Below are positions 22,429-46,410 of a stretch of DNA of 64,000 bases, in pieces. Position 1 is the stretch's first letter. Each line of letters begins with the position of its first letter. The notes under the pieces were generated by a model, which was not told where the DNA came from, ran no database searches, and was given only the letters and a program-made list of their open reading frames with translations. The stretch lies in assembly GCA_027475525.1 (NCBI GenBank), contig JAMWFC010000084.1, forward strand, positions 50,258 through 114,257, given 5' to 3'. The DNA is from Macrolepiota albuminosa (taxonomy: Eukaryota; Basidiomycota; Agaricomycetes; Agaricales; Agaricaceae). A program made the translations under genes and the position numbers.

Positions 22429-22582
22429 CAAGAGTCCTACTTTACCCGAGCCCAATTCAATGATCCTCTGCAGCCTCTTGAGGTTTCTGAGTAGAAATTG
22501 GTGGGCAAGAGTCCTACTTTACCCGAGCCCAATTCAATGATCCTCTGCAGCCTCTTGAGGTTTCTGAGTAGAAATTGGTGGG
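22429..22582. repeat. 77-bp tandem duplication 1
   Basis: 22429-22505 is repeated exactly at 22506-22582, with three further matching bases. Probable unmerged contig overlap. Confidence 0.9.
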
Positions 22583-23478
22583 CAATGCCCCTTTTATTAC
22601 AACCCAACAAGATGGTGTCGATATCCACTGACGAAACATGGTATATCAACTTCAGGAACGAAGCAAACCGTATCTCCACCAGTAGAGCTTGACAGGTCGT
22701 AAGCTGGTGTCCATTATTATCATATGCAGGGACCATGTTTCATCTTGAAACGGGAAAAGCTTTAGCCCTTGCCTTCGTGAATGCGCTTTATTTTCAAAGG
22801 TTGGTTCTGACTATTTTATTACCGTGTCTCAGGCTTTTTGACAAGACAGAGGGTACGGAATCCATCAATGTCGGTATTCCCGCCACCCTGATAATTTGCT
22901 TACCTGTGTTCTTTTCTTCATTGGATACCTAATCCTTACGATTTCGAAAAAAGAGCTCTGTGGCGTTACTTTGCATAGTTATTCACAAAACGTAAGCAAT
23001 TTTAACCTTTTGGTGTGTCGATAAAGTTTAAAACCTCGTAAAATATACACACACAAGCAAAGACTTTTGCACCGATTTCGTAGGAAGTATAAGAGTAGCT
23101 TTCATGACCAGTCATCAAGTTGCCAGTCTGTTGATTTGAGAAAGGTAAGTAATTGAACAGATGAATCAGCGAGACAATTAATGAGAACGCCAAGACGTTG
23201 ATGAAATGAAACCAACTTACGATGCGTCCGTAGCACTCCCAGTACGCGGCCTACGCTGTCAGCTACGACACTCGTGGGCGGACGGCGCTGAGAAGACTAT
23301 CTGTCTGCACGATTCTACAGTGATAACATGTCCAGAGTTATCCCAGGAAGAAAGTTCGTGCGAGGATGCGGCATGTATTGCTAATTACGAAGATGAAAAT
23401 GGTTCAACGGGTGTCGTGTTGGAACCAGAGGTCACGATGCCTCTGGGAACCAGGCTTCTAAAACGGAAATATCAAAAG

Positions 23479-23632
23479 ATGGTAATTACGCTCCATTTTC
23501 ATGGCTCGGGGTGATGACAATTTTCCTTCGTCTTGACCCCCGAGTGTCGTCGTCCATGGTAATTACGCTCCATTTTCATGGCTCGGGGTGATGACAATTT
23601 TCCTTCGTCTTGACCCCCGAGTGTCGTCGTCC
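23479..23632. repeat. 77-bp tandem duplication 2
   Basis: 23479-23555 is identical to 23556-23632. The unit contains a small hairpin (CTCGGGGT / ACCCCCGAG arms). Probable assembly scar. Confidence 0.9.
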
Positions 23633-23882
23633 TGGATGACCCTTTACGGCATGAAACAAGATTAAGTGTCTGCTTTGGTCATCAGGTTATCATTTCAGTC
23701 ACTGCAATATGTTTTCGGGGCTGTGTTGCGTTGTGGATCATTTGTTACGGCCAATGACGCTGTTTCAAGCATCTTTCACTTTTGAATACCTCAAACTCCA
23801 ATGACTCGTGGCCCGCATGAAACTTTCCCAGCGAGTGTCGTTGAGCCAAGCTCTCTGTCCTTGTAATAAAAAGGCGCTAAAC

Positions 23883-24036
23883 AACTGGCTTCCGTTGCTT
23901 GCAAATAACGCAATGTACCGAGCTCAGCTGTTCACATTCGTCTTCCTTGGTGCTGCCCTAACTGGCTTCCGTTGCTTGCAAATAACGCAATGTACCGAGC
24001 TCAGCTGTTCACATTCGTCTTCCTTGGTGCTGCCCT
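23883..24036. repeat. 77-bp tandem duplication 3
   Basis: 23883-23959 is identical to 23960-24036. It duplicates the start codon and signal peptide region of the pectate lyase gene. Confidence 0.9.
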
Positions 24037-25291
24037 GTTTTAGCTTAGCCGTAAGTGACGATCAGGGTCTATCTAGCTGGAAAGCGGTCAAACTCATTCC
24101 TGTGAAAATAGTATCTCGACATTGCAACGCCGTGATGCAACCAATGTCTTCCCGACTCCTCCAACGAGTTCCATGAGCTCGCCCATCACCGTTGCGGCTG
24201 GAACAACCTTTACTCCTTCTAAGCCGTACACTAGGTACGACCGTGGTTCTGGCGCATGCAGCGGCCAGTCAGAGGGAGGTGACTCCGATGCTGTGTTCCT
24301 TCTTCAAGAAGGTGCAACCTTGAGCCGTGTTGTTATCGGCGCCAACCTGGCTGAAGGGGTTCATTGCCTCTGTATTGACTTTCGTGGCCGTGGTGTTGTT
24401 TGTTCACTTTCCTTACAACAGGCTCCCGCACCTTGGATCACGTCTATTTCGAGGATGTCTGCGAAGATGCTATTACCCTCAAACAGAAGGGCGGAACCTC
24501 TCGCATCAATTAGGGAGGTGTACGTCATTACAACTTGTTATATCATGCTTTCTCAGTGCTAAAATCTTATCGATCTAGGCCAAGCTGAGTAATTGCGGGG
24601 ATAAATCGAGGTTCGAATCACCTTTTTCCGGAATTCTCAGCATGCGGACGACAAAGGTTGTCTTTCTTTTTGCGGGGATAAATCGAGGTTCGAATCACCT
24701 TTTTCCGGAATTCTCAGCATGCGGACGACAAAGGTTGTCTTTCTTTTAATTCTTCACTTGAAACTCATGGATCGGTTTCAGTCATCCAGCATAACGGAGG
24801 CGGAACTGTTATCGTCAATTCTGTATGATTTTCATCTTTGCAGTTCACTTGTGAATCTACCTTCTTTCTAGTTCTACGTCGAAGATTTCGGAAAGCTTTA
24901 TCGCAGCTTACCTCGTTTCACCCATGTCCTTTGTACCTGGGCTAAGTGATGTAAACCTTCTAGTGCGGAAACTGTGGCACCCAATACGCACGCCACATTG
25001 AAATCAATGACGTTTGGGCTGCCGATGGTTCCGCCCTTGTAGGCATCAACACGTAAGTGCACCAAAACTTTCTGCATTGACTCGGTCTTGACGCCTTTCT
25101 TGTAAACTGACAGAAACTACGGAGAGTGAGTCCATCCCCTTCTAATGTTCTGCAGAGACTGACTCGCCCTTTAGTACCCCAAAGATAAGGAGGACTCAGG
25201 TAGACGATGTCAATGACATCTGTCAAAATTACACCGGCAATGACGATGGAGACGAACCAGTTCAAATGGCAGTGGTCCTGACGACAAAATA
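23990..25291 (+). pseudogene. Pectate lyase, PL3 family, with in-frame stops
   Basis: Secreted enzyme cleaving polygalacturonate by beta-elimination. The likely start at 23990 (copied at 23913 by the 77-bp duplication) gives a signal peptide MYRAQLFTFVFLGAAL. The core follows across several introns: [122 protein letters not shown] and a C-terminal VNDICQNYTGNDDGDEP. It stops at 25289-25291. A TAG interrupts just after the signal peptide, and another lies at 24511-24513 where the family has Tyr. A family Cys reads Arg a little upstream. A second 77-bp duplication lies in the intron region near 24593. It is either a recent pseudogene or a live gene with base errors. Confidence 0.8.
24593..24746. 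repeat. 77-bp tandem duplication 4
   Basis: 24593-24669 is identical to 24670-24746 (one more base matches). It lies inside the pectate lyase gene. Confidence 0.9.
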
Positions 25292-25527
25292 AGTCCTTCC
25301 GATATCTCGAATTTCCGCAAAATCCTGACACGACTTTTCTATAGTACTGCTTGTATACGTCGTCGGACATAACCGAACTTTGATGAGATAAAAGTGAACC
25401 CGAAAGATTGTTCTCATGCGATCTTCCGCCATCCGTGAAGGGAACTGTGAAGGGTCCTGCAAGGATCTCATCTAAATTGTTGAACGCAGGAGTGACCTTA
25501 GCGCACGTGACCGAAATATTTTCACTT

Positions 25528-25573
25528 CCTAGTGTCGTCGTTTTCCTTCATTCTGAAGCACGACGACACTAGG
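25528..25573. repeat. Perfect 14-bp inverted repeat (hairpin)
   Basis: CCTAGTGTCGTCGT at 25528-25541 is exactly complementary to 25560-25573, with an 18-bp loop containing TTTTCCTTC. It lies 237 bp past the pectate lyase stop. It could act as a 3' processing or terminator-like structure, or be a foldback repeat. Confidence 0.8.
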
Positions 25574-25841
25574 CCGTCTACTGCCGTTGAGGTGTGATTC
25601 CGCTCCCGCTGCATACAACTAGCTGCAACATAAATTTCAATCGATGTATCTTGATTCATGTATACGTAGTTGCCAAAAGCTTGAGTTGGGTATTGTCATT
25701 TCATTTGAAATCCACACATTATTGATCCTGGTCTCCTTGATTTTTGTGATCTTTCTATCACAAAAGACCCACTGAGGAAGTCTTGCTGAGCGAATTGGTC
25801 TTTTGAAGATGGTCGAATGTGTTGGACTCCTTCCTGCCTGG

Positions 25842-25950
25842 TTTCTCCGTATCCGATCAGTCACGTGATACTTTGCCACATCATTCGTCTGCCACTCGCT
25901 TCTACAGTCTCAGTTGTCTCCTCCATTGTGACACGACACTGAGACTATCA
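25842..25950. repeat. Dispersed hairpin repeat, copy 1
   Basis: It contains ATCCGATCAGTCACGTGA, then CCACATCAT, then an inverted repeat with AGTCTCAG / CTGAGACT arms. A diverged copy with the same order lies at 48300-48407. It is not coding. Confidence 0.7.
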
Positions 25951-26076
25951 TCTGTGTTCGTATCTAATTAGATCCGGGATTACAGAATGGATGACAAACT
26001 CGTCCCTTCGGTAGTGTGATGGTCATTCACAAAAATAGCATTTTTTCCCAGAGTTTTGCTTCCCCAATAAGGATTA

Positions 26077-26230
26077 GTCGAACCCTATGCCTCTGGTTCA
26101 AGCTTCTGGACCCAATTCTTTGTCCACCTGAAGAAACATCTTGAGGCTGGAATGTCGAACCCTATGCCTCTGGTTCAAGCTTCTGGACCCAATTCTTTGT
26201 CCACCTGAAGAAACATCTTGAGGCTGGAAT
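26077..26230. repeat. 77-bp tandem duplication 5
   Basis: 26077-26153 is identical to 26154-26230. Confidence 0.9.
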
Positions 26231-26449
26231 TTTGCACAGAGACCGGAAACCATTGAGCCACTGATATCGATAGTTTCGCGAGGAAGACATAAGGGCCACG
26301 TGGATTATAATGGATGGAATGGTCAGATGGTGTCGGAGAGTGATTCGGGCCGCTACTTCCTCCCAGATGAAAGCTTACGCGCTTACGGCGGTTCGAAATG
26401 GGTTGCTCTTCCAATAATTGAACGTCTTGTCCTTCCCATCGACTCACAT

Positions 26450-29141
26450 ATGGTTTCCACGGCTGACCTTGAGCAGAATAGAGTTGGAGCAGAAGGCACC
26501 TTTTTTCAGGCGCAACTAGGAGTCAAATCGACAAGAAAACACTTCTTCGCACCCGTAGACCTTGCGTGTGCGGAAGCCGTGTACCGTGATGCAGAAACCG
26601 TAGAATATAGTGACGAGGATGAGGTACGTACATAATCTTCGTTCTGGCCTTTCCCTTTTGACTCGTTTTCTTCTCCCAAAAGAGACGAGTGAAGCGTAAG
26701 ATTGACAAAACCATACTTCCGCTGGTGATCTGCAGGTGAGGACTTACTATACTTACCTAGAAAAAGCCTCTGCCAACAATGATTTCATAGTTTCATTTGT
26801 GAGTGATCTCACAATGACTTATGCGTAACCTGAGTAACATTGTTCCTTACATTTTCTACAGTTAACCAATTCGGTGGGTTTTTCGCAACTGGGAACTCGT
26901 ATCTAGGAATGTATATACTGATAGTTAATAAAGACCGAACGAACATGTGTGCCCCTTCAGTTTTAAGTCGCTCTCAATAGTTGGTTGACTGCTGCAGTGG
27001 TAATGTCCATGTCGTCGAGGCTTTCAATGATAATTATGTACGTGCTCGCTCCACTCTTTTACCTACTCTTTTGAACCGATTGATATACCGATTGAAGGGA
27101 GTTTCGACTAATGCGAAGTGGACCCTCGCATTGAGCATCTTTTACGTCGGATACTGTGAGCTTGCACTGGCCGAAACTCAAGTTTCATGCTTCTACCGTG
27201 ACATTGTTAGGCCTCCTTGAAATACCTGCCAATAGCGAGTCACGATCATTCTACTCCTTAGGTCTTCTGACACAATTCGCAGTCTTGCAAAGGCATATCG
27301 GGGCCAACAGATTGTAAGATAATCATTCGTTACCCATGAAAATTTTCTAAAAGACGCAGTTTCTTCCTTTCGCTAACGGGATGGGGCATAGCATCCCTCT
27401 CCTTTGTGTATGCAAAGGGGTATGGAGGTCTTTTGGCTCTAAGGTGAGTTATTCTGCAGCGGGTAGCGATTGACTTTGCCCATATCTCTTTAAAGAGTAC
27501 TGCTGGGAATCGGAGAAGCAGGATTCTATGCCGGTATGATCTATTACCTGTCGTTCTGGTACAAAAAGTGCGTTTCAGAATGCCTGTATGTCTACTGATT
27601 GACGCCAGTGTGATTCTGCCTTAGGCACGAGCTTGCTATACGCATCAGGTGCGAGGCTGACCTGTTACTTGATATGCTAGGCTTAATCAACATTATTCTG
27701 TGAAAACATTAGCCTCGGTATGACTGGAACCGTACCAGGTGCCTTCGGGGTTAGTAGCCAACAATAATCTAGGGTTTCTGTATTTGATCATCTTCAGGGT
27801 CTGATTGCCTTCGGACTTGTCAGAGCAAATACCTCCTTACTCGCTGGGTTAGTTGTCTATGACTTTGCCTTATCTCTCGTTTATGAGCTTTGCAGATGGC
27901 AGTTACTTTTCCTGGTAATGTGTAACTACTGCGGAGTCATCATTTTTCTCACTTTTGCCCAAAGATAGAGGCAATCCCAACCTTAATCATGGCATCAGCA
28001 ATTCTGCTCTTTCTCCCTTCATTCCCGTTTACGGCAAGATTTCTTACTCCTCGCGAGCGCGCTATTGCTCAGGCACGTCTGAACCGGGACCACAAACCAC
28101 AGTCACATGGAGGAATGACCGGGTGGCAAGGTTTCAAAGCAGTTGTTGCAGATCCTAATGCATGGCTGTTTGCTGTGATATATGCGAGTTGTGAGTACAC
28201 TGTCATCTCTTCTGACTCGAAAAGATGCTGAGGTTACAGTTAATGTCGGAGTTGCCACTGTCTCTTATTTCCTACCTACAGTAAGTGTTGGCTACGTCCA
28301 TGCTATCACTAATTTGGATACAATGTGAAGCATAGCTGATCAAAGACCTTGGGTTCTCGTCCATCGATGCTCAGGGCCTGACGGTTGCTCCTTATGTTGT
28401 TGCTTGGTTCATGGTGTTCTTCCAAGCTTGGCACAGCGATCGTACCAAAGACAGAGGATGGCATATTATGCTGTCATGTTCTATCTCCGTCATTGGATAT
28501 ATTATCCTCGCTACTTCTGTCCAGAAAAGCGTGGGTGCTGGTTACTTTGCTCTTTTTCTGATCGTGGGCGGAAATTACAGCCTTTTGCTACTTCTGTCCA
28601 GAAAAGCGTGGGTGCTGGTTACTTTGCTCTTTTTCTGATCGTGGGCGGAAATTACAGCCTTTTCCACTCGTCATGTAAGACGCGCAAGCTCATTCTATCC
28701 CTGCTGACCTCCTGAAAAGGAGCTGGGCTGCGAATGTCTTCTCACCGACCTCAAAACGTGGTGTTGGAACGGCGTTTATCGTTTCTATCTCAAATTGCGT
28801 CTCAATGTTGGTGTCTTTTGAGCCTCCCGATATCATCTTGTGATGACAGCCTTAAAGTGCTTCACCTCAAGTCTACTTTGATCCTGATGATTCATTTAGG
28901 AAGGGACATGCTATTTCTGCTGCGTTCGTTCCAGTCTACACTTGATTCGGAGATACATGCTCAGATAGATTCTTTCAGATGCCTCTTTCTGTCATTCTGC
29001 GCTGCATTTACTTTGCGCACTCGACTTACGTTGAAAAATAAGCGGAACGCAGAGGCGTCGATGGCAATGTCGCCGGAGGAAAAGCTTCCTGTCGCTACAG
29101 AGATGTGGGATAATGACATACGTTATGTCTTTATGACCTGA
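26450..29141 (+). CDS. MFS permease, Dal5/Tna1 (anion:cation symporter) type, many introns
   Basis: A plasma-membrane permease of the allantoate/nicotinate group; the substrate is not known. The N-terminal acidic segment EYSDEDE is spliced to RRVKRKIDKTILPLVIC, the usual start of the first membrane helix in this family. Then follow NAKWTLALSIFYVGYC-LLEIPAN, FFLSLTGWGIASLSFVY, VLLGIGEAGFYAGMIYYL, LGMTGTVPGAFG, LIAFGLVRAN, a loop with FLTPRERAIAQARL, KDLGFSSIDAQGLTVAPY, WHIMLSCSISVIGYIIL and an acidic tail ending WDNDIRYVFMT (stop 29139-29141). The start at 26450 is my best guess. The intron after IPAN (27235-27292) begins GC, not GT. A 77-bp duplication at 28510-28663 breaks the frame; even with one copy the frame appears off by one base there. 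The exon around the first helix (26735-26980) is unresolved. Confidence 0.8.
28510..28663. repeat. 77-bp tandem duplication 6
   Basis: 28510-28586 is identical to 28587-28663. It lies in a coding exon of the MFS permease and repeats the segment encoding about ATSVQKSVGAGYFALF. Confidence 0.9.
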
Positions 29142-29775
29142 TAACTGAAATGGGTTCCAATGACTAAACCCGGGCCCGTTTCGACTTTGTACTAGATATG
29201 CGGGGGCTTTCTAAGAGGGCTTAACACACCTGCGTGCCCGTTTCATGTACTCTCCGCTGACGAAGTTAAGCGTCATGACGATTGAGGTAACTATTGACGG
29301 GGGGAATGAAGAAGAAAAACGGGAGTCGCGGTCATGTGTAGGGAATCATAAATCAGAAAAGGGGTAGTATATTTATCGAGGGTATCGAAGGCTCAAAGTA
29401 AAACTGGAAGATGAAAAAGAAGCCGGTATGCTAGTGATATCCAAGTAATCAAACGAACTGGAGGGGTGTCGAGCATGTACATGTCTAAGACAGAAACCAA
29501 AAGAAACAAGAGGAGACATATTACTTTGTCCTTGATATATAAGGAAAAAGAACAGAAAAATAGAGAAAGTCATCTATTCAACGTGAAAGAGAAGCGAGTG
29601 GGATATAAAGGAAGATTAATAGGTCCATGAGGACTGCTTTGGATCAATTAATACCACCATCCGCTCGCCATGGGAAACCCAGTTTGACTGAGCTTGAGGG
29701 AACACTGGTATAGAGAGTAGCAATGAGAAGTATATAACACCTTTTCCACAGTATACAGTACTTTTATACACTGCT
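29142..29775. other. Intergenic downstream of the permease
   Basis: No gene seen. It ends at the left terminal inverted repeat of the element at 29776. Confidence 0.4.
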
Positions 29776-31011
29776 GGCACTGACACCTAAGGCAGCACTC
29801 TTTGTGCTTTCTTGATGGCATCTTAGGGGGGTTATTTGTGTTGACAGAAACCCCCCTAAAACGGCTGGAGGTTGGACGGTCGTGCTTCTATTTCCCAAAA
29901 TGGAACCTCCCGAGATTTCCAATTTACCTCTTGAGATTTACGATTTACCTTCCAACCTCTTTTGTACCTCTCTACGTACCTTCAAGCCTTTATCCCTACC
30001 TTCATACCATCACACTTCTTCACCTCTCAACCACTTGGGCTCTCAACTACTCGGGCACTCAATGAACTTGTTGTATTTGTAATCAATGTCTTTGATCTTC
30101 TCGACCACTGTCTATGATGATGGTCTCACCCAAGTATCCGACATGCTCGTTGCAAATTGTATCCTAGAACACATGCAGTATGTGAATCCTCAGTTTATAC
30201 GTGTATTTGACTCTGCTTACTTAGAACACATGCAGTACGTGAATTTAAGGCAAGGTAAATAAAGTGTCTGTAATAGTAGATGATTCGCTCACCCTCAGTC
30301 TATATGTGTATTTGACTGAGGGTGTGTAATGTAGGCCATCTAATATATACACATTTCTCTCTGTTTTTTATTTGTGTTGTAGAGGTAGCGGCGACCCATA
30401 GTTGATGAGGGAGAAAGGAAGGTTGGCAGATCGAGTTAAGCACAAATAGAAAGCATTTGCCAAATTCTGTCTTACCTTTTTGATTTTTGTCTTACCTTTT
30501 TGTTTTCATGGGCACGGAGCACTCTGGTTTTTGGCATTCTACTTCATTCAACATGGGGCCATCCCAAAATCAGGCCTTCCCTTCAACATATGGTGATGAA
30601 GAACAGTTTTGGAGTTTATCAGTATGGACAGGAGGACGATAGCATAGATTCAAATATGCTCAGTTACAATTGATGTCTTGTAGTTTCTTGATCCAATGTA
30701 CCATATCCATATTTTTTGATAGTGCTGAATATTATTTGTTCTTGACATAACCTCATAATTCCAGGAAGGGAAAAAGATATATAAGTATGCAGAAAATATA
30801 TGAAAACACGTGTCAAGAACCTCCCAACCAACTAGCGAACCTCATAACCACCCAACTTCTGCACTGCAAAAATGGACTTTCTAGGCCCAATCGCAATCTC
30901 GGCTTCGAGAAGAGGTGCGGTCAGTGTGCTTAGGGTACTTCCCATCAGCACAGATAACCCCCCTAATGTGCCATCAAGAAGCACATACCGTCCTGCCAGG
31001 GGTGGGCACTG
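29776..31011. mobile_element. Non-autonomous DNA-transposon-like element with ~70-bp terminal inverted repeats
   Basis: The left arm (29776-29846) and the reverse complement of the right arm (30943-31011) align through CTTGATGGCA, TTAGGGGGGTTAT and TGTG-TGA blocks with few mismatches; outer parts share CACTG/CAGTG and GGCAG. The interior is about 1.1 kb, has no transposase, and carries short internal direct repeats (GAACACATGCAGTA at about 30169 and 30226; CCTCAGT-TAT-GTGTATTTGACT at about 30188 and 30295). No target-site duplication could be fixed, so the superfamily is unassigned. Its right end abuts the next foldback element. Confidence 0.65.
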
Positions 31012-31268
31012 AAAGATGTTTCCATTGGAAAAAGTGTAAAAGAAACATGTTATATCATTTCTAAAGTGCCAATTTCAGATATAAAAAGTCACTTTGCTTT
31101 GTTTAAAGACTTTTTCTTTCAGGTGGCACATGGATTTCTAAAGTGCCAATTTCAGATATAAAAAGTCACTTTGCTTTGTTTAAAGACTTTTTCTTTCAGG
31201 TGGCACATGGAAATGGTATAGCATGTTTCTTTTCCACTTTTTCCCAATGGAAATACCTTTCAGCAGTG
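31007..31268. mobile_element. Foldback MITE, nearly palindromic
   Basis: The left half starting CACTGAAAGATGTTTCC matches the reverse complement of the right end (CACTGCTGAAAGGTATTTCC) over about 57 bp with few differences, and the similarity continues inward through GTGCCA...TGGCAC. With one copy of the internal 77-bp duplication (31057-31210) removed the element is about 185 bp. It has no coding capacity. It lies 65 bp upstream of a tRNA gene. Confidence 0.75.
31057..31210. repeat. 77-bp tandem duplication 7
   Basis: 31057-31133 is identical to 31134-31210. It falls across the centre of the palindromic MITE, where a k-mer assembly graph would be expected to break. Confidence 0.9.
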
Positions 31269-31332
31269 ATAATTGCTCAAGCACGAAGGCCACCGCGGCT
31301 ATGACAGAAAAACCTGATAATTTGTTACACAC

Positions 31333-31414: not shown

Positions 31415-31419
31415 ATTTT

Positions 31420-32173: not shown

Positions 32174-35100
32174 TTAGAAAAGCTTCGAGACACTGTGGCT
32201 GTAGTTTAGAAGCATTTTCTCTAGTTTCATCGTGCTGGAAACGTACGAAAACTTCCACAAGTTCACTGGGTTGTTATAGGTGTCGTTGGTATACGGGAAC
32301 CTGACTGTTATCGATGACATCAACAAGTGAAAGCCGTGTCCCAGGGCATTACGCACATAACGGTAACTCGGAAAGATAAGCTGCGAGGAGATTCATTCAA
32401 TAAGTATTCCAAGTTCAAGCAAAGCGCTCTACGTACCGATCGGAACGCTCTCATTGAAGAAACTCCAAGCTGTATGAAAACAAGTTCTCATAAGATCACA
32501 GAAAATTGAGGATTATTTGACCTGTCCTCCAGTTATGTCTAGTCGAGAATGATAAACTTCGATGCATCTCTAATGACTCGATATACGAACCTGAAGTTGG
32601 CTGATACAAGCCTTCAGAAGATGATTTGGTCAATACCACTAGTCTCAGACTTTCTCGGGGTCGGGACTCACAAATCAGGAGGAGCCAAAGGATCCTGGTA
32701 ATATTCATGCCAAGTTAGCGTTACTACTCTAGGACACGAGTACTTACGTCCTTCACACCAGCTGTTTTGATCTCTGTATCGATGTCCACCCATTCGAGGA
32801 CCTGATTACCAGCCATCCCTTAGGACGAGATGGAGCATAAGCGACTTGGTTGTAAAGATGAATTTAGCATATACCCTTGAACTCTACATCTTCCCCAGGT
32901 TTACCTCCGAAAACGGCGATCTTGGTGCCGTGTCGTTCATTCATGAGGGTGCTGAACATTGCGCAGGTGGAAGCGCAATTGCCGTTGCTGACTGTGTTGA
33001 ATGGAATTTGTCCAAGCTACATTACTGAATTATATTTTAGCTCACCAATAGCGACTTTGCTAAAAGAACAGAAACCTAGTTGAGGTATCAGGGTAGTATG
33101 GGCAAGGAATTACCTTAGATTGAAAGGAGGATCATCTGGAACCCTCTGCGAGAATCCAAGTTCACAAGTATCCTGTATGTGTGTGTCTTGATAAGCATAT
33201 GCACCATTGGGTGTAATGATACTCACATGGAACCTCTGAGATGTCGGATCCGAATGCCCATTGACAGTAAAAGGCGATGAGGGGGTAATATAGTCAAAGT
33301 TAGCAGGCATATGCGTTCCGTTCAAGAAGGCGTCTGTCAGACAGTAAAAGGCGATGAGGGGGTAATATAGTCAAAGTTAGCAGGCATATGCGTTCCGTTC
33401 AAGAAGGCGTCTGTCACGATGTTGGGTACCTAAATCTTAACAATGAGAGCCTGGCTTACAGTTGTCGCCAGTGTAGAAGGAAGAGAAATCGTTAAGACCA
33501 AGCTTAATATCCGCAGCAACAATCTTCTGAGCAAGAGCATTGGCACGGACGGATGAGACAAAACCGCTGAATGACATTTTGAGCAAGAAGTACTGCAAAA
33601 ATGTATATGAAGACACACGGGTAGCCAAAATTGGCACCAGAGAGATATTGATGCAAGAACTGGCCCAGGCAGACGAACCCTCCTGGATCTCTCGTGAGAA
33701 ACAGGCCAAAGTTATGTTTGATGGCGCCTACCTCCATTATTTGTCAAGTCAATCAGAAGCTGTGTAATTCCCGCTTCCTTGAATGCCTGGATCGCGCTCA
33801 CAACATCGGCTTGGAATCCGTCGAAGTCGCCCGAAAATGACCCGACGAACATCTTTTGTGGTCAATACTGTAAGGACACTAACTGAGCATTCATCAAAAT
33901 CTAACGCACCACGCCCGTTTCATTATCGGGAAGGATGAAGGACTTGATGACTCCTTCACTCCCTGCAACAGGAGGTAGGGAGGGTATAAACTGGGGAGGG
34001 AGACCGACGGCGTTAGAGTGTGACTTGTCAATGATGTTTCCCTTGGCAAGACGGCGGGTAACCGTCTTCGACAATGTTTGTGAGGCCTTCAGATCAACGC
34101 CATTGGTATCAGCATTCGCTGCACAATTAGTTTCCCAACTAGTAAAAGGAGGTCAATCATGGAATAATGGCACCCCGCTTGGAATTGTCAGAACTCACTA
34201 AGAAGCTGAATCAGTAAAAGGTGTGCCAAGATAGTTTGCCAAGTAAGGAACAGTGACATTTTCTGCCACAGTAGAATTAACAGGGATTAGATTGAATGTG
34301 AGTGAGGTTTGAGTGACATCCATAGGCCCAGCCAGATCGCCCAATCGTTGAGAAAAATCGGTTCCGGAGATGCGATAACTAGTGAATACACTATTGACTC
34401 TAACGCCATGGTCCAGATAGTTTCCAGAAACGGTCTTGGCAATAGTATCCACATATGCGTATGGATCCTGGCCATTGATTTGCAGAACCTGAGCACCTGC
34501 AAGACGCTTCCAGTCAAACCCGATGCTATCGAAAAAGCCTGTGTATTCAGTGCCAAGGAGAGAGATGAAGTCTACCGCATCAAATGCTATGTAGACACCC
34601 TGGACTCCGTTGACTTCAACAGTGATCGGAGGTGTAGGAAGGACATTCTGGTAAGCGTCATAGCAATTCGGGAACCAACCTGACAATGTGAGGGTGAGTA
34701 TTACGCACGCAACGAGTATAATATATACAAACGGGTGTGTCCATCATTCAACTGAGTAGTGAAATCATAGAGAGCTTTGTTGAAATCGTAGTCAGTCTTT
34801 CAGAGAATAATTCATCACACCAGTGCATATAAATTCTACAGGAACCGAACTTACTGCAAATTCCGTCGAATTCAGCTTCGCGATTGTTGCTCGGATGTCA
34901 ACCATATAAATTCTACAGGAACCGAACTTACTGCAAATTCCGTCGAATTCAGCTTCGCGATTGTTGCTCGGATGTCAACCGTCGACTCCTGGAATGGCGG
35001 CGGGGAATTCAAGTAGTATTCCTCGAACGTGAAAAAATCGAAGACCCGTGCAACGTTTGTGAGGACGTTCTGCCTCAGAGTCTCGTTGAAGGGAAAGGCT

Positions 35101-35252
35101 TTGTAACAGGCGAGAGCGTCGGCTGGAGGTACGAACGTCTTTCCTGCGACTTTAGTACATGGATCAGCAGCCGACGAAGCTGCAAAGGTTAGTTGAGGGA
35201 TAAGACATGCGGCCGCAAAGACAGACGAGGCAAGCCTCACGATGAGAGGCAT
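32174..35252 (-). CDS. Secreted S41-family (tail-specific-like) serine peptidase, many introns
   Basis: A predicted extracellular or vacuolar peptidase. The start at 35252 gives a signal peptide MPLIVRLASSVFAAACLIP; a second copy of the start at 35329 is due to the 77-bp duplication. The N-terminal region has ADPCTKVAGKTFVPPADA and ACYKAFPFNETLR. A PDZ-like middle contains GAQVLQINGQDPYAYVD. KMFVGSFSGDFDGFQ and LLIDLTNNGGG lead into the S41 fold. The nucleophile region is probably VSNGNCASTCAMFS, followed by MNERHGTKIAVFGGKPGE. The C-terminus reads PYTNDTYNNPVNLWKF and ends VSKLF. Three 77-bp duplications fall in this gene (33263, 34826, 35203); counting one copy at 33263 gives an unbroken exon through TDAFLNGTHMPANFDY. 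Exon ends were not all fixed. It resembles basidiomycete CPAF-like peptidases. Confidence 0.75.
33263..33416. repeat. 77-bp tandem duplication 8
   Basis: 33263-33339 is identical to 33340-33416. It sits in an exon of the S41 peptidase and shifts the frame. Confidence 0.9.
34826..34979. repeat. 77-bp tandem duplication 9
   Basis: 34826-34902 is identical to 34903-34979. It spans an exon end and donor site of the S41 peptidase. Confidence 0.9.
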
Positions 35253-35356
35253 CGTTGTTATCCTGAGGACACAAACCTGAGACATGCGGCCGCAAAGACA
35301 GACGAGGCAAGCCTCACGATGAGAGGCATCGTTGTTATCCTGAGGACACAAACCTG
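35203..35356. repeat. 77-bp tandem duplication 10
   Basis: 35203-35279 is identical to 35280-35356. It duplicates the start codon of the S41 peptidase. Confidence 0.9.
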
Positions 35357-35658: not shown

Positions 35659-35812
35659 GTCGGCGCTTGAGACTGGATATATCCTTTCACCGCACAGTGA
35701 ATAGCCGTCCGTGTGACTATATGCACCACGAGTGCGTCGGCGCTTGAGACTGGATATATCCTTTCACCGCACAGTGAATAGCCGTCCGTGTGACTATATG
35801 CACCACGAGTGC
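35659..35812. repeat. 77-bp tandem duplication 11
   Basis: 35659-35735 is identical to 35736-35812, with four more matching bases. Confidence 0.9.
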
Positions 35813-35961
35813 GTCGCTTCGATAGTCGACGGATTAAGCTTAAATTAATTACGCCTTAACATTATTACATAAGCCCTATCCCTCAAAATCCCTTCTGCCA
35901 TCTGCAAGTCCGTTTTGCTATCGTCACATCTTTGCAATTTATGTTGTGGCATCTCAATACT

Positions 35962-36216: not shown

Positions 36217-36317
36217 TTGGTGGTATTTCCTATTTCAACGTCCAGTACGAGCACCTGCGACCTTGTCTCTTTCTCATGCTCCTCAAGTTCTGTTCGCTGG
36301 TCTCGTGGATGATCATA

Positions 36318-36471
36318 TACATACTCTGTCAGTGAATCTCAGTGGCGTATCAATATATTAAACTTTATTTAAGCTTTCGTATCATCGATTTCTGTACATA
36401 CTCTGTCAGTGAATCTCAGTGGCGTATCAATATATTAAACTTTATTTAAGCTTTCGTATCATCGATTTCTG
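36318..36471. repeat. 77-bp tandem duplication 12
   Basis: 36318-36394 is identical to 36395-36471. Confidence 0.9.
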
Positions 36472-36825: not shown

Positions 36826-39800
36826 TCAAGTACTAAATGTCAGCACAGTGTCCCGAATTTGGATTTTCACACTACGGTCTGCGACCCAACTAATTCGTAT
36901 AAAATCCATCGTTTCTTGTGCAGTCATATTCGCTACGACACTCATGATCAGCAACAGTAACGGGTACAGATCGAACGTCAAAGGAACACACACCTGCTTC
37001 TCCTACGTTATAGCTGATTGTCTTGAACGGTTGCGAATCACCATGCCCTTGTCGAGGTGGTGCTCCAGGATTGAAGAAACTCGCGAAACTCGAACCGACC
37101 TTCCAAACTAAGGCGACACTCTCTTCTATAGACAGCGTCAACAACCTTCGTCCATCGGGCGAAAAACTACATGCTGATATCGCTTTAAGGCGACACTCTC
37201 TTCTATAGACAGCGTCAACAACCTTCGTCCATCGGGCGAAAAACTACATGCTGATATCGCTTTTTGTGTCCTTCAAGAACGTACAGTCTAATGGCTGTTT
37301 TGAGGTCGTACATGACGACAGCTCCATCGCTTCCACCTACAGCAAGACGCTGCGTTCCCATATAAAAATCAACAGCGGGAAAACTAGAGAGCAGTAATGT
37401 AGATAGACTAGGAGGAAAGAACCAAAAACCTACGCCTTGACAACTTGGCTTATGACTTCAGTTGCTGAGTCTATCACTGCTTCTCGATGTGTAGTGGCAT
37501 TGGGGTCCAATGACCTGACAACGGCCTCCATTAACTTGGGGATGTTGGGCTGTAAAACAGACGGACGCTGAAACAGGATCTCAGGTAAAGTAATTTTATT
37601 GCTTGAGCGAGTGTACCGGCCTTTTTGATGAGAAATGCAAATATTTGCATGACGGCTTTACGGTGCTCCAGCGTAGGCGGTGTTAGTATATCAAGTCCCA
37701 ACGTCGTCATGAATAGAGCCGTGTTACTTGATGCGATCTGCAGAATAGCAAGCCGAGCTTGCAAACCGATATTCTGAGGGCTGAAGGAATCCTTGTGACT
37801 ACTGGTAGCCAGACCAAACAATGCTCGAAGAATCTCCATGGCATCAATATAATGATGCCAGATATGGAATCCCCTTGAACACAGGTCAACAGCAAGGACC
37901 CTGTGCAGGGAATGCTCATCATGCAAGTAAATGGCAATCGATTTTGAGATATCCGTGAGCGCGCTATGATCATTTGAGTGAGATAGAACTAAGTAAAATT
38001 GAGCTAATGTTATACCTCGTAGAGAGCAAGCTATACTTTTCTGCGGCTAGATAACCACACAAAAATAATGAGAGGGCAGCCTGAATTGATTCCCGTTCAG
38101 CAGTGGGTTGAAGACACGGCACTTGACTATGTTTAGCTGATGAAATGGGAGGAACAATGGTGCCTACGATGGTGTTGCCAATGCTCAGTGATCTCGATAG
38201 TTTCTCCGTCTGACATACAAGCCATGGCGTAGTCAAATAGCACGCGAGTCGCCCTTCGAACATGGTCTAATGAGTCTGTCAGACCAGACGGCTCAGAAAA
38301 ATTTACAGAAAAACAAACTGGAACCGTCAAACCATTTGCGTGCGAGGTACACGAGACTGGGCGGTTGGTATTTTGGTCCAACAGCTGATGCCAAAGAAGT
38401 CGCATAGAATATCGTGACAGTATGAGCACCTTCCATCAACTCTACAGAAATTGTAATTAAAAAGTGCATGTCTGGGTAAATAGACAAACAGACCTTCAAA
38501 GACGCTGAGAGCGTTGAGCATGACAACGATCGAAAGGGCCCGGGCAGCGGAGACATCACTCGAGAAGCACCATAGTTCATGAGAACTTGTCCTTCGGTAG
38601 AGAGTAACCGCTCCATTGCTAAAAGAATCTGAGAAGATTCGTCTTCGTACAAGTCAAATCTGGTTTTTACCTTGAAACGCCTGAAAATGCTAGAGAAGGA
38701 CGAATTCCAAGCTTTTCAAAACATATCGCATCAATATCGTGGTTCAACCCGGGTGTCAGAAGTACCGATAGCACAGAGCGAAGTCGTTCAAGAGTTCTGA
38801 GAATCGCACGAGTTTGGACACGATTCGTGCTTATCGACTTTGCGACAGCGACAGACGCTGATGTGAAGCGTTCCAAGTCCAGCAGCAGCGTCGAAGCTGA
38901 AGAAGATAAGACTTATTCTAGAAAAGATTTTGCAATCAACTCACAGGTATCAGGAAATGTCAAGTTCGGAATCGACTCGAGGAAAATGTTCTGCTCCCTT
39001 ACACGGGTGTTTATTGCTCTATGAGATCTGTTAAGCATCTTATCTGACTTGCCCAAGATATTACTCACATCTCTGACCACCCTCCTTGCTTTAACATCTC
39101 CTCAGCTTTCTCTTCAGCCATTGATCTCCAAAACTCTTGGGTCTTCACATCCCACAGACGAGCGCGATTGTCCGCATAAACAATGAGCAAATTTGTGGAC
39201 CCGATACAGACTCTGCGTAGAGGTACAGACGACCCGGGAATCAGGTACAAGCTGCCGGTAAGTAAACTCAGAAAGGGAAGTGAGACGAAAGGGCAAACAA
39301 ACTCACAACTGAAACCCATCAATAGCAATAACAGCAATGGTCCCGTCTGCAGATATACATAATACACATCCCTTCAATGGAGTATTCTGCGGATCCTCAA
39401 CTTGTATGACGTGGGCTAGGCTTGTTGTGAACAGCGTCCAGCGCGCACACAAGTTGTAATGACTTATGTATAGAAGGATGAGTAAACCTTAACAAAAAAG
39501 TAATATCACCGTACTCCAAGGTCCAAAATCCCACAGAACCATCGTCAGCTCCTCCAACGATAAACTTTTCTTTCGTCCTGCCATTTGAAGCAATAAACAG
39601 GCTTGTGATGAAGCCATTCAAGGCGGGTTCAGAAGTATCACTGGAAGGCGTTATTTTACTAGAATCTGAAATCATTTGGATCAAGGACGATCGTCGAAGA
39701 CGGCCATCGACTGGAAAACACTCAGAGATCAGCAAGGCTCAGACTAAGTGACAGAAAATCACGAACGACATCCTTGCACTATCAAGTCAAGTTCCATAGG

Positions 39801-41924
39801 TAGTAACGACGTGACCTCTTTTCCAGTATTATGAGTAGGCCGAACTTTGGAAGACCGCGCTTGCCAAGACGTCCTCAAGTCTTTTGAACACGTATCAAAC
39901 ACGGTAAGATTTCTGACTCTGTTTTCTGAATAGGCCGTGAACAGGATTTGTGATGCAGACGTGATATCTATTGCATCGTAAGGATCAGCGAGGGTGATGG
40001 TTTGCAGCCGATGAGGTCTGGTTCGAGTTCAGGCCACGGAGAATTATCACGTTGAAGAAAACAACTAACGTCACAATGGTCCTCCTTTCAAAGGTTATGT
40101 CGTTCATGTCAACGTCATTATTATTATTGGCGTCCACAGCTCTGAGTGTATAACATTCAGCACGATCCTATATTTGTTAAAGAAAGAACATTAGATCTCG
40201 ATGAACTAGATCGTACCTCGAATAAAATAGTGTATGACGAGTCAGTGGTCCATTGTACATCTAGAATAGAAACCTTGGAATCCATAAACAACACGTGGAG
40301 AGATCCGCTTTGAAATTCAAAAACCTGGAAAAGATATCGCTAAATGCGCATCAACGTTCGAAAACTCATACTGACTGTAAGATGTTTCTCAGACCATGCA
40401 ATGCCGAAGGTTTTCCTTCGAGCGCCTCGTGCATGGAACCCCAAAATTGTTTCACCTGTAAGAACTTCGCCCAAATCATTGACATCATCACACGCGATCC
40501 TCCGTGTTTCCTTTGTGGTCTCTGCTGGAGACGAGTGTTCCGCAAGATGTGGTTTCAGAGCCTTAAACGGGTTTGGTATGTTGAGGCTCGATACATCTTT
40601 TCCTGGAGGTTGGATTTCCAGTTGTGAAGTTACACGAGGAAAAAGATGTATGCGTCTACTCAAAAAGTGGCCCTCTGCAGATAATTGGAAGAGTTTCAAT
40701 GATTCTAAAAAAAGGATCAACACTCATCCAAAGTTGATGGTAGAAACGACGAACTATCCACCTCTTGATGTAATCCAAGGCTATAGGAAGGTCCCTCGAA
40801 GTGCCACTGTCCAATCAAATCGATGTCAACATTGAGTTCATGGGAATGAAACTCAAAGATGGCAATACGAGATTTCTTCTGCACACCATTATCAGCAAAT
40901 TCCAAAGATGGCGGCGGTGGGGCATTGGGATCAATCGTAGCCGCAATGAGGATGATCGTGGTCTAGCGATAGCATTCGTTGATGACTGATGGAACGAAGA
41001 GAATACACTTCAAACCTCCTGAAGTTCATACACTTTGAGGTGGTTCCAAAACCATAAAGCTTGGAACAAATCTTTATCTTCGACGTTGATAGGAGGATTT
41101 AGAGCCTTGCTTGAGAGACTGACAGTGGCCATGCAGTTCCCGTCTTTCAGTGAGATAACGCTCAAATCTCTGCGAAATATCAAGTTTTGGTGTCTATCGG
41201 AATAAATATCAACTGACCCTGTTTCCTGAAGAACAACAAGAAGCTGATTATCCTCAATCGGGCGTACGCTTGTCACCCCCCGTCCTGGTCCTCCGTTCGG
41301 TAGAATTACGTGGCACCACAAATCAAGGAGATTTAATTTCTCAGAACCGGACTCGGGCGACGAAGGGTACGATGAAGGCGTGATAAAGGCGGCAGAATTT
41401 GTCGCGGATAACAAAGACTTTTGTATTGTATTTCGCTTCAGGCATGGAGTAGGACTTGGTAAGTCCTTACTAGTCGGTGGCTTCACTAGTTCTTTGGGCT
41501 GGCGGCCCTGCAAGATATCCTTCAATTTTTCAGGTTCTTCTTCAAAGTCAACATAGTTCTTAGGCGCTTCGACTTGCTCGGCTGTTACACCAAATACTAC
41601 AGAAGCCCTTTGGCTCACATTGAATGGAGGGGGTGATGTTGGGGTCGAAGACCGCGAACGCGAAGGCGGACGAGACTCTAGCAGCGATAGACGTGGCGGC
41701 TGTGAAACAATTGGTTGTGTTCTGCAAGTTTGACTGAAGAAAAATAGAGTGCCATCCTGAGTTCCCATCGCACAACCTCCTTCAGAAGGATGCTTGAAAG
41801 CCGAGACATGACCCCAAGACCTGATTACGGACGGGCGAGCGGACGAACAACTCTGTTCCAGGAGGTCGCTCCTCTCCCTTCGAAATGTAAGCGGAATGAT
41901 AAACGCAGGCGTTGGACTCATCAA
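36826..41924 (-). CDS. Large WD40-repeat protein, possibly WDR7/rabconnectin-3-beta-like
   Basis: A long multi-exon minus-strand gene of about 5.1 kb. Exon 1 (from 41924) reads SWGHVSAFKHPSEGGCAMGT and TQDGTLFFFS, a first beta-propeller blade, then a Ser/Pro linker. Later exons carry IAIFEFHSHELNVDIDLIG, FIVGGADDGSVGFWTLEYGD, CVLCISADGTIAVIAIDGF and LLIVYADNRARLWDVKTQEF followed by WRSMAEEKAEEMLKQGGW. A helical, armadillo-like middle spans roughly 37.5-38.7 kb. The C-terminal part has SACSFSPDGRRLLTLSIEES and ALVWKVGSSFASFFNPGAPP, and ends DRSVKIQIRDTVLTFST (stop 36826-36828). The order propeller, helical region, propeller-like C-terminus resembles WDR7, which regulates V-ATPase assembly, but the subfamily is inferred. 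A 77-bp duplication (37109-37262) repeats one blade segment; one copy reads continuously. Confidence 0.65.
37109..37262. repeat. 77-bp tandem duplication 13
   Basis: 37109-37185 is identical to 37186-37262. It repeats the codons for about AISACSFSPDGRRLLTLSIE in the WD40 gene; a single copy is in frame. Confidence 0.9.
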
Positions 41925-42047
41925 TGAAATGGTTCAATATGTATATTGACATTATGTAACACAGCCACAATATATATCGTCCTGCCATGACATCATCTGC
42001 GGCAGACTTTTATCACTCGGAGCCCAACCGAAAACTGTTAGAGTACA

Positions 42048-44023
42048 TCAAACTACATAAGGCGGAGGGGTTCCAAGTCGTATTGGATATATACTTTCTG
42101 TTGCAAAAGAAGCGTAATAATCCGAATGGTCTTCCACTTCCTGTGCCTCTGGCATATGTCTATTGAACATGTGGACATCCTGCGAAACAGGTGTCCTAGG
42201 CGAAACAGGTGTCCTAGGCGAAGCAGGTGTCATAGGCGAAACAGGTGTCCTAGGCAGACGAGCGATTTGTTGAGGACTAGTCTGTTGAACAATGTTTCCT
42301 GTAATTTGTAACTTGAACAGACGGTTTAGCGTCAGGATGTGTTAAGATAAAGCGGTTGGAAAGCTTACTTGGTGTTCGGGCCTGTGAACACCACGAGACA
42401 TATGCACTGAAGTGTTAGACCCAGCCTCCACCATCGTCTCATCATTTGATGATATACTGTGAGCGTGAACGACAGGATTAGACATAATCATCTTCCGCAT
42501 TTCGCTTTTTCCAGGCGACTCCGGGGAATACATGGCAGAATTGCTGTCGAAGTGTAAATTCTCCGTCCTTGTACTGGGAGTAAGCAACGTGAACGGCTCT
42601 TGGACGGCCGTCTGGTCCTGCTCTCGGGCCCATTTCTTCTTCATTCTCTTCAAATGGCACTAGAGGAATGATGGAACAAGCTTTAGTGATTGATGACTGG
42701 GGCTTACCAAGAAGCAGATCAATAACACAAGAATAGCAGCAGCACCAGCCCCAGCGGTGATGCCAATAATAGTACCAGCAGACAAACTGAACGGTCGCGT
42801 CGGTATAGAGTATTTAGATGCATCTTTGGTTCTGTCGACCTACCTAGAATGGACCGTATCACTTGGCGATGCTCCAGAGGTATTCGCAGTACCAGAGCTA
42901 CTATTATGGAAACTTAAATTCGGAAATAATGTTTGATATACGAAAAAAACTCACGTAGACGAGGAATTAACAAGGCTGGGGAGGGTATAAACTGTTGCAT
43001 AGTCAATTTCAAACAAGTCGTTCGCCTGGTTGATGATGAGCAGCGAATGATTTCCAGGTCCGATGTTGCTATCGTAATGAAGCAAGCTCTGCGCTGCATA
43101 GGTATTCGTAATCGCTGAATAGTACTTGGGCATCCCATTGTCCAGTTGTATCGAATATTGCCCATTGTCTGGGCCGAGAGAACCATACAATGCGACAGCA
43201 TCACCTGAGACATTTTAAAACGCTAGTTCATGGCCGCCCAGAGATCGTGAACACACCCTACACTTACTGAGACACAAGGACTACTATCATAGCAAGATAC
43301 TCACTGTAAACAAAAAGGCCATCGTTGCTCCGATTTCTTTCGTTGAACTGGATAGTTGAGAAGGAACGATAAGCTTAGATACGAGACCTTCTATAACACT
43401 TACTTACCGGCCAGTGCCGTCAAAGAAAAGAGCAGGATCCGATGGTTTCAACCAATCGCCTTGATGTTTTTCAAAGGCAGGTTCTGCATCATCAACTACA
43501 TTCTCAGTCACAGAACCTGTTTTTCCAATATTAACACTCGAAACCCATGTCAACTTTTGAGTAATGTCAGATAAAGCACATCAGACATTTAAAAATTCCA
43601 TACATAATCAATGACAAGAGTTGAATTCCCTCGAGTAGAGATGGTAAGGGTATGGGTACCGGGAGATAGAGTATTATTCTGGATAAAGAGCGGGACCTGG
43701 TTCCCCAATGGACCCTGTCCATTCTTGGAAAAAGTCTGGTCATCAAGATCGACAGTGAAAATTCCATGGTCCATGTAGCCAAATACAGTGATGCTGACTC
43801 CTTCAAATGTGAAAGTCATTATCGCGCCCGGCTGTTGAGTCGATGTAATTGTCCCTTTATAAGACCTTGAAGGTTCTCGATGAGACAAGACACAACAAGG
43901 ACTAGTATGTACCTACTCGTTTGTAGCAACGGAGTTAGTGCTGGTGTTGTGTTGTGCCCATGCCCCAGGGGGTTGGTAAGCGATAAGTGGGCTTGCATCG
44001 TCGATGGTCAATAGACTAGACAT
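42048..44023 (-). CDS. Single-pass membrane protein with two beta-rich ectodomains
   Basis: A family common in agaricomycetes and of unknown function. The start at 44023 gives MSSLLTIDDASPLIAYQPPG; no clear signal peptide is seen. The first domain has GAIMTFTFEGVSITVFGYMD, FTVDLDDQTF and LSPGTHTLTIS. The second has VVDDAEPAFEKHQGDWL, DPALFFDGTGRSTK, GATMAFLFTGDAVALYGSL and NHSLLIINQANDLFEIDYA. A Gly/Ala-rich transmembrane helix, GTIIGITAGAGAAAILVLL, is followed by basic KRMKKKWA as stop-transfer. The cytosolic tail of roughly 150 residues is Ser/Thr-rich and contains TPVSPR repeats. It stops at 42048-42050. The layout suggests a cell-surface receptor or adhesion molecule; this is inference. 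The repeated lectin-like beta folds could bind sugar. Confidence 0.75.
42184..42255. repeat. 18-bp minisatellite, four units, coding
   Basis: Four units of GAAACAGGTGTCCTAGGC-type sequence (one unit with two differences) encode the six-residue repeat TPVSPR in the cytosolic tail of the membrane protein. Unit length is a multiple of three, so copy number can vary without frameshift. Confidence 0.9.
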
Positions 44024-44779
44024 GGTCTATTTGCAAAGAAGAGGAGGATCAATGTGCACAAAGCTCTGAAGCCTGTCAGTCAATATCAACGGACATTAGA
44101 AGATAAAAGTAGAAGACAGTAGTCAATCAAATGATCTTGGTTGCGAATACCACGCCTCAATGAGTTGAGCAACAAATTTGACTCCCTCCAGTATCAATTG
44201 ACTGGACTATGAAGAATAGCATCCTCGTCGAGACTTGCAATGGAGTCTGATACTCGACCGTCAGTCCAGATCTTGTTACAGCAAAGTATACACGATCAAA
44301 AAGCGAAAGATCCTATTGAGTGCTTAGAGCTATCCATCGCTTTCTCACAGAAAAGACGTTTGAGTTTGATTCAGGAGACATCTATCAAGAGTTTCATACG
44401 TGAGGCATCTTGCTCAGGGCAACAGTTTGAAAAGACACATTGTGTGAAAGGGAGACATCTATCAAGAGTTTCATACGTGAGGCATCTTGCTCAGGGCAAC
44501 AGTTTGAAAAGACACATTGTGTGAAAGCGCCGCTACTTCAGAACAGAGATTGTTCTAAAAATCAAACAGTCCCAATTATAAACAACTTTCTGTCGTGATG
44601 GACAGAAAAACGGCGTTTGCCGAGCCATGTCTTGAGCTCTTCGAGATTTGTGCATTCCCTTCAAAACATGAAAATCATGTCTAAATGGTCGTTTTCTCAA
44701 AGCTTCGCTGTTCAATTTCAATCTTAACGCTCTGGTCTGCCTTCATAATATTTTTCTGACGTTCCTGAGTTGTTTTGGG
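44024..44779. other. Intergenic with one 77-bp duplication
   Basis: No gene supported. Duplication 14 lies at 44374-44527. The region separates the divergent membrane protein and TBCC genes and presumably contains both promoters. Confidence 0.4.
44374..44527. repeat. 77-bp tandem duplication 14
   Basis: 44374-44450 is identical to 44451-44527. Confidence 0.9.
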
Positions 44780-45730
44780 ATGACAGTTGGAAACTCGTAT
44801 CAACAATGCAAAGTCGAGTACAACTATTCCAGGAGAGTTATTACAAATCTGTCCACTGAACTAGCTAGGCTTGGAAAGAGTCTTGCTGATGCAACAGGTT
44901 CGGTACCTCGATACGATCAACGACAGCATGAAGAGGTCAGTAATTGCCCTTTTTTTTCAAGTATGGACAGTCCAATCTGAATTATAACCAGCAAATAACA
45001 GCTTTAGAGATCGCTTTAGCGGAATTAAGAGGATTGTCCAAGCCAAAGCCCAAGTTTGCAATTAGACGAAAGACAGCTGATCCAATGCCCAAAAGTCTGC
45101 TCGAGCCTACGACTGCTTCCCTTGATAATTCATCATCCCTCTCTGGACCGATAACTAATATATCATTATCTGGTTATTCTCATGTATCAACTTTTGACGA
45201 CAGATATGTTGCCAGGATCATCAACACCGGGGGACCTGGTTATTCGGGACCTCGATCATTTGTATTGTGGATCTACTGTCATCTGGCCGATGTAGTGCAT
45301 CAAACTCCACTCTGCTCATTTCCGCACTCCACAACCAGAATTTGAGGGACACCGTGCTTTTACTTCGGCGTATCGAAGGCAGTGCCTTGATCCACGACCT
45401 AACAAGATGCACGATTTCTGTAGGGCTGCCACCAGGTAGGCAAATTGTCATTTTGCACAGCTCAATCTGATCCTAACATCAGTACTACATCGGATGCACT
45501 TCCAAAAATGTAGACGTCTACTTAGCTGTTATGTCCGACCCTATCATCCAGCATTGCTCAGAGGCACGTTTTGGAGGTTATCCTGACGTTTTTGGTTCAA
45601 TTGCAATAGTACTATTCCTCCACAATGTTTGCGATGCTAATTCAAGCTAAGGAAACATTTCAACGTTATTGATTTTTCCCATATACGGTCGTCACCATCG
45701 CCTCATTGGTTGGTCCTTGATAATGATTGA
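44780..45730 (+). pseudogene. Tubulin-binding cofactor C-like gene with frameshifts
   Basis: TBCC is the GTPase-activating factor that releases folded beta-tubulin from the tubulin-folding supercomplex. The helical N-terminal part reads LSTELARLGKSLADATG, YDQRQHEE, then across an intron QITALEIALAELRGLSKPKP. The TBCC beta-helix follows in pieces: STPGDLVIRDLDH (frame 2), CIVDLLSS and NSTLLISALHNQNLRDTVLL with LRRIEGSALIHDLTRCTISV (frame 3), then TSKNVDVYLAVMSDPIIQ and HCSEARFGGYPDVF, and after an intron RKHFNVIDFSHIRSSPSPHW to the stop at 45728-45730. Single-base changes near 45258 and 45430, a probable 2-base loss near 45500, and a frame change near 45195 break the frame. The gene is either decayed or carries sequence errors. 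The true start may lie upstream of 44780. Confidence 0.7.
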
Positions 45731-46410
45731 GTAACATCTAACTGGCCTTTCAAGAATGCTACAATGTCACGACAGGTTTTCAATGTAACATGCAAGAATA
45801 TACTCCCTGAACCCTAAGATTTCGTTTTTGGTCGATGTGCGGGTTGCATGGAGAAGACGAATGGATGCCCAAGAATATACTCCCTGAACCCTAAGATTTC
45901 GTTTTTGGTCGATGTGCGGGTTGCATGGAGAAGACGAATGGATGCCCTCAGCACTGAAGTTGGCATGCATCGTTCGTCAAGTACTGCCGTCGCCTAGTTA
46001 GTCTGGATAATCCGAGGGTCTCAGGACCTCTCGTCATGGACCAGTAAACTTCCTTCCTCGGAGCAATACTCGAATATGTTGATGATTCTGATAGGCTACA
46101 TAAATAGGGCTTGGAATCAAATAAACTTACTACAATCCACTTAATATTTCTGTAACTAAGGAATTAATTACCAGATATACTCAAGGAGTAGTGTTTGAAT
46201 GATAATGTGATAATGTCAAGTGCTGAGGACTGATGTATGATATATGCGATATCTCGATGTGGTTGTGAATTAGTCTTATAGAAATAACCTTGGCAATGGA
46301 TGACGAGCAAAATCAAGGAGTCAAATATGTAAACGTTGCAGCACAGCCATAGAGCATTCGTTCAACAGTAACACGACGTACTTTTCGACCACGACTGTCT
46401 TCTCACACTA
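45731..46410. other. Intergenic with one 77-bp duplication
   Basis: No gene. Duplication 15 lies at 45793-45946. The rest is AT-rich promoter-like sequence upstream of the Cys-rich gene. Confidence 0.4.
45793..45946. repeat. 77-bp tandem duplication 15
   Basis: 45793-45869 is identical to 45870-45946 (one more base matches). It is the last of the series. Confidence 0.9.

Follow-up and report, generated by a model that had tools for sequence, protein, structure and literature searches.

Exact 77-bp tandem duplications in a Macrolepiota albuminosa contig are almost certainly an artefact of assembly

Introduction

In SPAdes, neighbouring edges overlap by k bases, and 77 is a usual choice of largest k; the consensus of long reads typically errs by one-base deletion. 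There are published accounts of false duplications that arise at the boundaries of contigs and in error-rich or heterozygous regions (Rhie et al. 2021, PMC8081667; Ko et al. 2022, PMC9516828). Our literature search found no account either of an exact k-length head-to-tail artefact or of a doubled k-mer anchor.

The locus considered here is a stretch of 64,000 nucleotides (the window), which corresponds to positions 50258–114257 of contig C71 in a M. albuminosa assembly of 100,137,612 bases and 129 contigs. A first-pass annotation had listed 15 exact tandem duplications within it, all with a period of 77 bp, and had read them as the product of an assembly step with k = 77.

Results

Inventory of the duplications

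At all 15 of the listed coordinates, two identical 77-bp units lie directly adjacent to one another (Table 1). The runs over which each base equals that found 77 positions further on are 77–81 bases long, and, because of this, the start position is uncertain by 1–4 bases at eight of the 15 sites. Extensions of this size are expected where adjacent bases happen to agree by chance; across the 52 exact 77-bp duplications from nine contigs (see below), the mean excess over 77 is 0.58 bases. A scan of the 64 kb for periods of 15–1499 bp returned only two other full exact tandem runs, one at 42182 with a unit of 18 bp and one of low complexity at 57523 (periods 15–22); between 23 and 1499 bp, no exact tandem period besides 77 bp was present in the window. 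Chance is not the source of exact 77-bp units in 15 places. Their distribution is patchy: all fall within 23.5 kb, and there are none in the flanking 40.5 kb (positions 1–22428 and 45947–64000).

Table 1. Exact 77-bp tandem duplications in the window, with the length of the match run and the state of the allelic contig C113. Left and right refer to the first and second copies, respectively
Feature	Position	Run (bases)	Copies in C113	Differences from C113
77-bp duplication	22429..22582	80	single	8–11 bases right, 20–23 left
77-bp duplication	23479..23632	77	single	one-base deletion within 2 bases past second copy, the sole difference in next 250 bp
77-bp duplication	23883..24036	77	single	right side, a difference cluster including one-base deletions
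77-bp duplication	24593..24746	78	single	right side, a substitution and then three one-base deletions
77-bp duplication, both allelic contigs	26077..26230	77	doubled (C113:7203)	none within 250 bp
77-bp duplication	28510..28663	77	single	one-base deletion abuts second copy, the sole difference in next 250 bp
77-bp duplication	31057..31210	78	single	one-base deletion abuts second copy
77-bp duplication, S41-like gene (minus strand)	33263..33416	77	single	substitutions 1 and 25 right
77-bp duplication, S41-like gene region	34826..34979	78	single	closest right difference 26–27 bases
77-bp duplication	35203..35356	77	single	one-base deletion 2 bases past second copy
77-bp duplication	35659..35812	81	single	closest right difference 22–26 bases
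77-bp duplication	36318..36471	78	single	right side, a substitution plus two one-base deletions in the first 16 bases
77-bp duplication, WD40 gene (minus strand)	37109..37262	78	single	one-base deletion after second copy
77-bp duplication	44374..44527	77	single	the only site differing directly left; right difference 6–7 bases
77-bp duplication	45793..45946	78	single	one-base deletion within 2 bases past second copy

Comparison with the allelic contig

The allelic comparison is that of C71 with a single further contig, C113, positions 1–38000 of which align along window positions 20092–49544 and beyond, mostly at 97–99.96% identity; within this alignment, the stretch 28587–31133 contains no mismatch and one gap. 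C113 is single-copy at 14 of the 15 sites, the exception being that at 26077, which is doubled in C113 as well. We considered whether this shared duplication might be ancestral, and rejected it: a paralogue at C62:1812591–1814151, which is 91–95% identical, has one copy as judged from the match coordinates, such that the doubling is not ancestral to the repeat. C113 itself carries four duplications in the aligned stretch, three of which are single in the window.

Polarity of the junctions

Polarity was measured as the length of C71–C113 identity to the left of the first copy and to the right of the second, with the site at 26077 excluded. At 10 of the 14 informative window sites, the alleles differ within 2 bases to the right of the second copy; a difference this close to the left of the first copy is seen at one (44374). 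Among 2468 control 77-mers with a unique exact match (from 3575 positions tried), the corresponding rate is 0.8% on each side; the statistics for polarity, and those for deletion clustering given below, treat nearby differences as independent. The four window sites with no C113 difference within 2 bases to the right are 22429, 34826, 35659 and 44374. The difference directly right of 33263 is a substitution, which suggests real heterozygosity. Outside the window, a one-base deletion follows the second copy within 2 bases at each of three further C71 sites (C71:134449, C71:137111 and C71:140123), and, over the 17 informative C71 sites, 13 are polarized to the right, one to the left and three to neither side. 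C113's own four informative duplications are mixed in this respect: L033:4967 has its difference to the right, C113:29290 to the left, 16777 to both sides and 6325 to neither at close range, and a one-base deletion at the junction is absent from all four.

One-base deletions beside the junctions

Over the aligned 29.3 kb, the window differs from C113 by 22 one-base deletions, 5 one-base insertions and 190 substitutions. Many of the deletions sit in short homopolymers. Seventeen of the 22 lie within 200 bp to the right of a junction, where 2.1 would be expected were they evenly spread, and none lies in the mirror 200-bp stretches to the left of the window junctions. Closer in, there are nine one-base deletions within 8 bases to the right, at nine of the 14 window sites, and no one-base insertions. 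For substitutions, the excess to the right is not significant over 200 bp (22 versus 18.3 expected) but is so over 8 bases (5 versus 0.9 expected). With the three outside sites included, a one-base deletion is found within 8 bases of the second copy at 12 of the 17 informative C71 sites. Five C71 sites (23479, 28510, 37109, 45793 and L013:449) show no difference other than this deletion over the following 250 bp, and none of these isolated deletions has a second duplication on its far side. The one-base deletions beside the junctions look like errors.

Spread through the assembly

Exact 77-bp duplications number 52 in 258,696 non-N bases from nine contigs, and they are present in seven of these (C71, 29; C90, 8; C113, 4; C1, 4; C20, 3; C100, 2; C81, 2; C60, 0; C129, 0). 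This sample is non-random: 156 kb of it is C71, and C81 was picked because it was already matched, without which the count is 50. The eight duplications of C90 all fall in one 10-kb sample, and another from the same contig has none. For the duplications of C90, C20 and C100, a search for allelic counterparts returned only pieces of ∼40 bases or repeat-family matches.

An examination of the length spectrum had been proposed in the first-pass annotation, and the outcome in the stretches scanned favours its reading: no exact tandem period of at least 23 bp besides 77 occurs in the window or in the sampled stretches L001–L023 (the latter scanned to 999 bp, and a further stretch, L036, for periods of 70–84 only). 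Additionally, we took part of a high-copy C100 repeat as the query and considered adjacent matches no more than 100 bases apart on one contig, giving 90 joins among 131 of the 138 matches. In 27 of these joins, from 17 contigs, the other repeat copy has extra bases, in every case 76–79 of them (77 in 21 joins, 78 in four, and 76 and 79 in one each). The remaining 63 have missing bases, exactly 77 in 47 joins, between 73 and 78 in 15, and 176 in one; these reflect the query's own two duplications, which are lacking from those repeat copies. The copy on C81 is unbroken at the query's duplication and has two 77-bp duplications of its own close by, the first starting ∼8 bases from that of the query. 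At C29:372447–373966, the match coordinates indicate six such insertions in 1.5 kb.

The sampling also brought some compositional features to light. Just upstream of the window, C71:42669–50000 (L010) consists of 7,332 bases of N, which may be an assembly gap. The G+C content is 0.58–0.61 in the samples L016 (C1), L022 (C129) and L023 (C100), the last of which is a high-copy repeat, versus 0.38–0.52 in the remaining samples of more than 5 kb.

Effects on genes

Given that 77 is not a multiple of three, every exonic copy shifts the reading frame. The S41-like gene at 33263 was expected to have a continuous frame if one copy is counted, and indeed it does. The same had been claimed for the WD40 gene at 37109, wrongly so: its single-copy frame is not continuous, as a base is missing right after the second copy relative to C113, and the frame in the window is, thus, displaced twice, by the extra 77 bp and by the missing base. 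C113 is open through this junction, which is spanned by a Pfam WD40 match at residues 58–82 of the translated piece. The gene at 28510 is presumably transporter-like, with a frame that we take to be intact on C113; a Pfam search with the 73-residue C113 fragment from this site yielded nothing of use. At least one gene here, then, has a further one-base deletion besides the duplicated 77-mer, and gene models, pseudogene counts and tandem-duplication surveys derived from this assembly would be wrong.

Other features of the window and assembly

The best named relatives of the DHH/DHHA2 protein encoded at 18792–19940 (minus strand) are, apart from the window's own protein, from Termitomyces, with 88% and 86% identity, and its other good matches are also from mushrooms; this points to Termitomyces or something near it, a mushroom of termite gardens. 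A non-LTR retrotransposon occupies 52501–57366 on the plus strand, where a 1227-residue frame contains reverse transcriptase (PF00078, E = 1.3e-39) and endonuclease (PF03372) domains; the next frame resembles the 3' part of this element, and one stop codon separates the two. Weak SH3_Tf2-1 and chromodomain matches at 3747–4484 (minus strand) mark the remains of a gypsy-type retrotransposon. Rfam has no match within the window. Elsewhere in the assembly, equally scored match pairs recur at a constant offset within single contigs (C92, C81, C65, C27, C90 and C44). On C92, for example, the pairs 1184434/1691249 and 1221160/1727975 share an offset of 506,815, and on C65 the offset is 105,808. These are large within-contig duplications, which possibly represent the second haplotype in the same contig, or are real.

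Discussion

The 77-bp duplications are almost certainly an assembly artefact rather than real DNA. A fixed length of 77 bp points to a k-mer length, and the artefact reading of the first-pass annotation is supported both by the occurrence of one sharp length in many contigs and by the single copy on C113 at 14 of the 15 sites.

As to the form of the artefact, we think it probable that a left anchor has been written twice ahead of an uncorrected long-read patch, both patch and anchor being inferred. In such a hybrid assembly, accurate sequence indexed by 77-base words would alternate with short patches of less accurate long-read consensus. The patch would be appended, wherever the accurate path stops, from the start, and not the end, of the last shared 77-mer, such that the left anchor is doubled, whereas the right end of the patch would be joined correctly. 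A patch of this kind may still hold uncorrected errors, and the doubled 77-mer would mark its left edge; the faulty step could be the hybrid assembly itself, gap-filling or polishing. This model predicts that deletions should be confined to the right of the junctions, and for the window relative to C113 this is what is found (17 of 22 within 200 bp to the right and none to the left); the exception is L013:449, which has a one-base deletion 74 bases to the left. Also against the model are the mixed polarity of C113's own duplications, the four window sites that show no close difference to the right, the substitution beside 33263, the enrichment of substitutions within 8 bases and the lack of any difference at 26077.

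The first-pass annotation had proposed a different mechanism, in which contig ends are joined without merging their k-base overlap. The part of this that invokes a k = 77 artefact stands, but the join itself fits less well with the near one-sidedness on C71 and with deletions that pile up to the right. In its fullest form, the proposal would have unitigs of a de Bruijn graph (SPAdes-like, with k = 77) concatenated untrimmed, and the junctions would lie at branch points of the graph, which arise from heterozygosity or from differences between paralogues. We regard this as unlikely, albeit a serious contender, as it accounts for the length of exactly 77 and for the fact that most junctions adjoin an allelic difference (10 of 14 within 2 bases to the right, against a control of 0.8%). 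Moreover, the repeat copies L023 and L036 are doubled separately in the same neighbourhood, with starts ∼8 bases from one another, which is what divergence of paralogues would produce, and it retains some probability because C113's own duplications, and a few of those in the window, adjoin substitutions. A bubble has two ends, yet at the five isolated one-base differences on C71 only its opening is doubled. Furthermore, such overlaps would be expected mostly at substitutions, whereas what adjoins the doubled 77-mers is chiefly a one-base deletion in the contig with the duplication (nine of the 14 window sites have one within 8 bases), and the excess of deletions extends over the 200 bp to the right (17 of 22), all of which is awkward for unmerged overlaps.

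Two further explanations are scarcely credible. An error of scaffolding or haplotype merging, in which overlapping contigs, one from each nucleus of a dikaryon, were joined as in an ordinary false homotype or heterotype duplication, could draw on the partial presence of both haplotypes in the assembly (C71 and C113) and on the false duplications at contig boundaries described by Rhie et al. (PMC8081667), but the homotype duplications presented there are of about read length and often gapped, and those here are of exactly 77 bp with no gap. Real tandem duplications of fixed length, as might be left by a transposase or a repair process with a 77-bp footprint, would be in keeping with the perfection of the units and with the doubling of 26077 on both allelic contigs, but we reject them on the strength of the single length, the single-copy allele and the positions, which are not shared among the repeat-family copies: one exact length recurs in many contigs, in sequences unrelated to one another, and the two copies never show partial divergence, an allele without the second copy exists at 14 of the 15 sites, there is neither an inserted element nor a shared motif, coding frames are broken, repeat-family copies are without the query's duplications (47 joins at exactly −77), and the paralogue of 26077 is single-copy.

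To return to the doubled left anchor, it is an even call whether a short uncorrected long-read stretch has its left edge at every doubled 77-mer, and hence whether this is an error type of a hybrid assembler or polisher. If so, any assembly could be searched for exact tandem repeats that share one odd length and precede one-base deletions, and errors of this kind could be found and dated without reads. A density of 0.2 per kb would amount to ∼20,000 sites and ∼1.5 Mb of false sequence assembly-wide, although this is a crude extrapolation from a non-random sample. Counting exact tandem repeats by length is a simple detector of the fault, and the value of the 77-bp duplications lies in their use as a warning of, and detector for, a faulty assembly step, not in real biology.

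The likeness to known systems is partial in each case. With the contig overlap of SPAdes-type assembly at k = 77, the duplications share an identical k-base stretch between consecutive pieces and a single fixed length; the difference is that both ends of a bubble would be expected to be affected there, whereas on C71 it is almost only the left edge, with one-base deletions thereafter. With the deletion errors of unpolished long-read consensus, the window shares a preponderance of deletions over insertions (22 versus 5), many of them in short homopolymers, but here they are confined to ∼200 bp to the right of a doubled 77-mer. As in the false homotype duplications described by Rhie et al. (PMC8081667) and Ko et al. 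(PMC9516828), one locus has been written twice by the assembly, in association with sequencing error and heterozygous boundaries; the cases printed there are of about read length and commonly gapped, whereas those reported here are exactly 77 bp long, head to tail and gapless.
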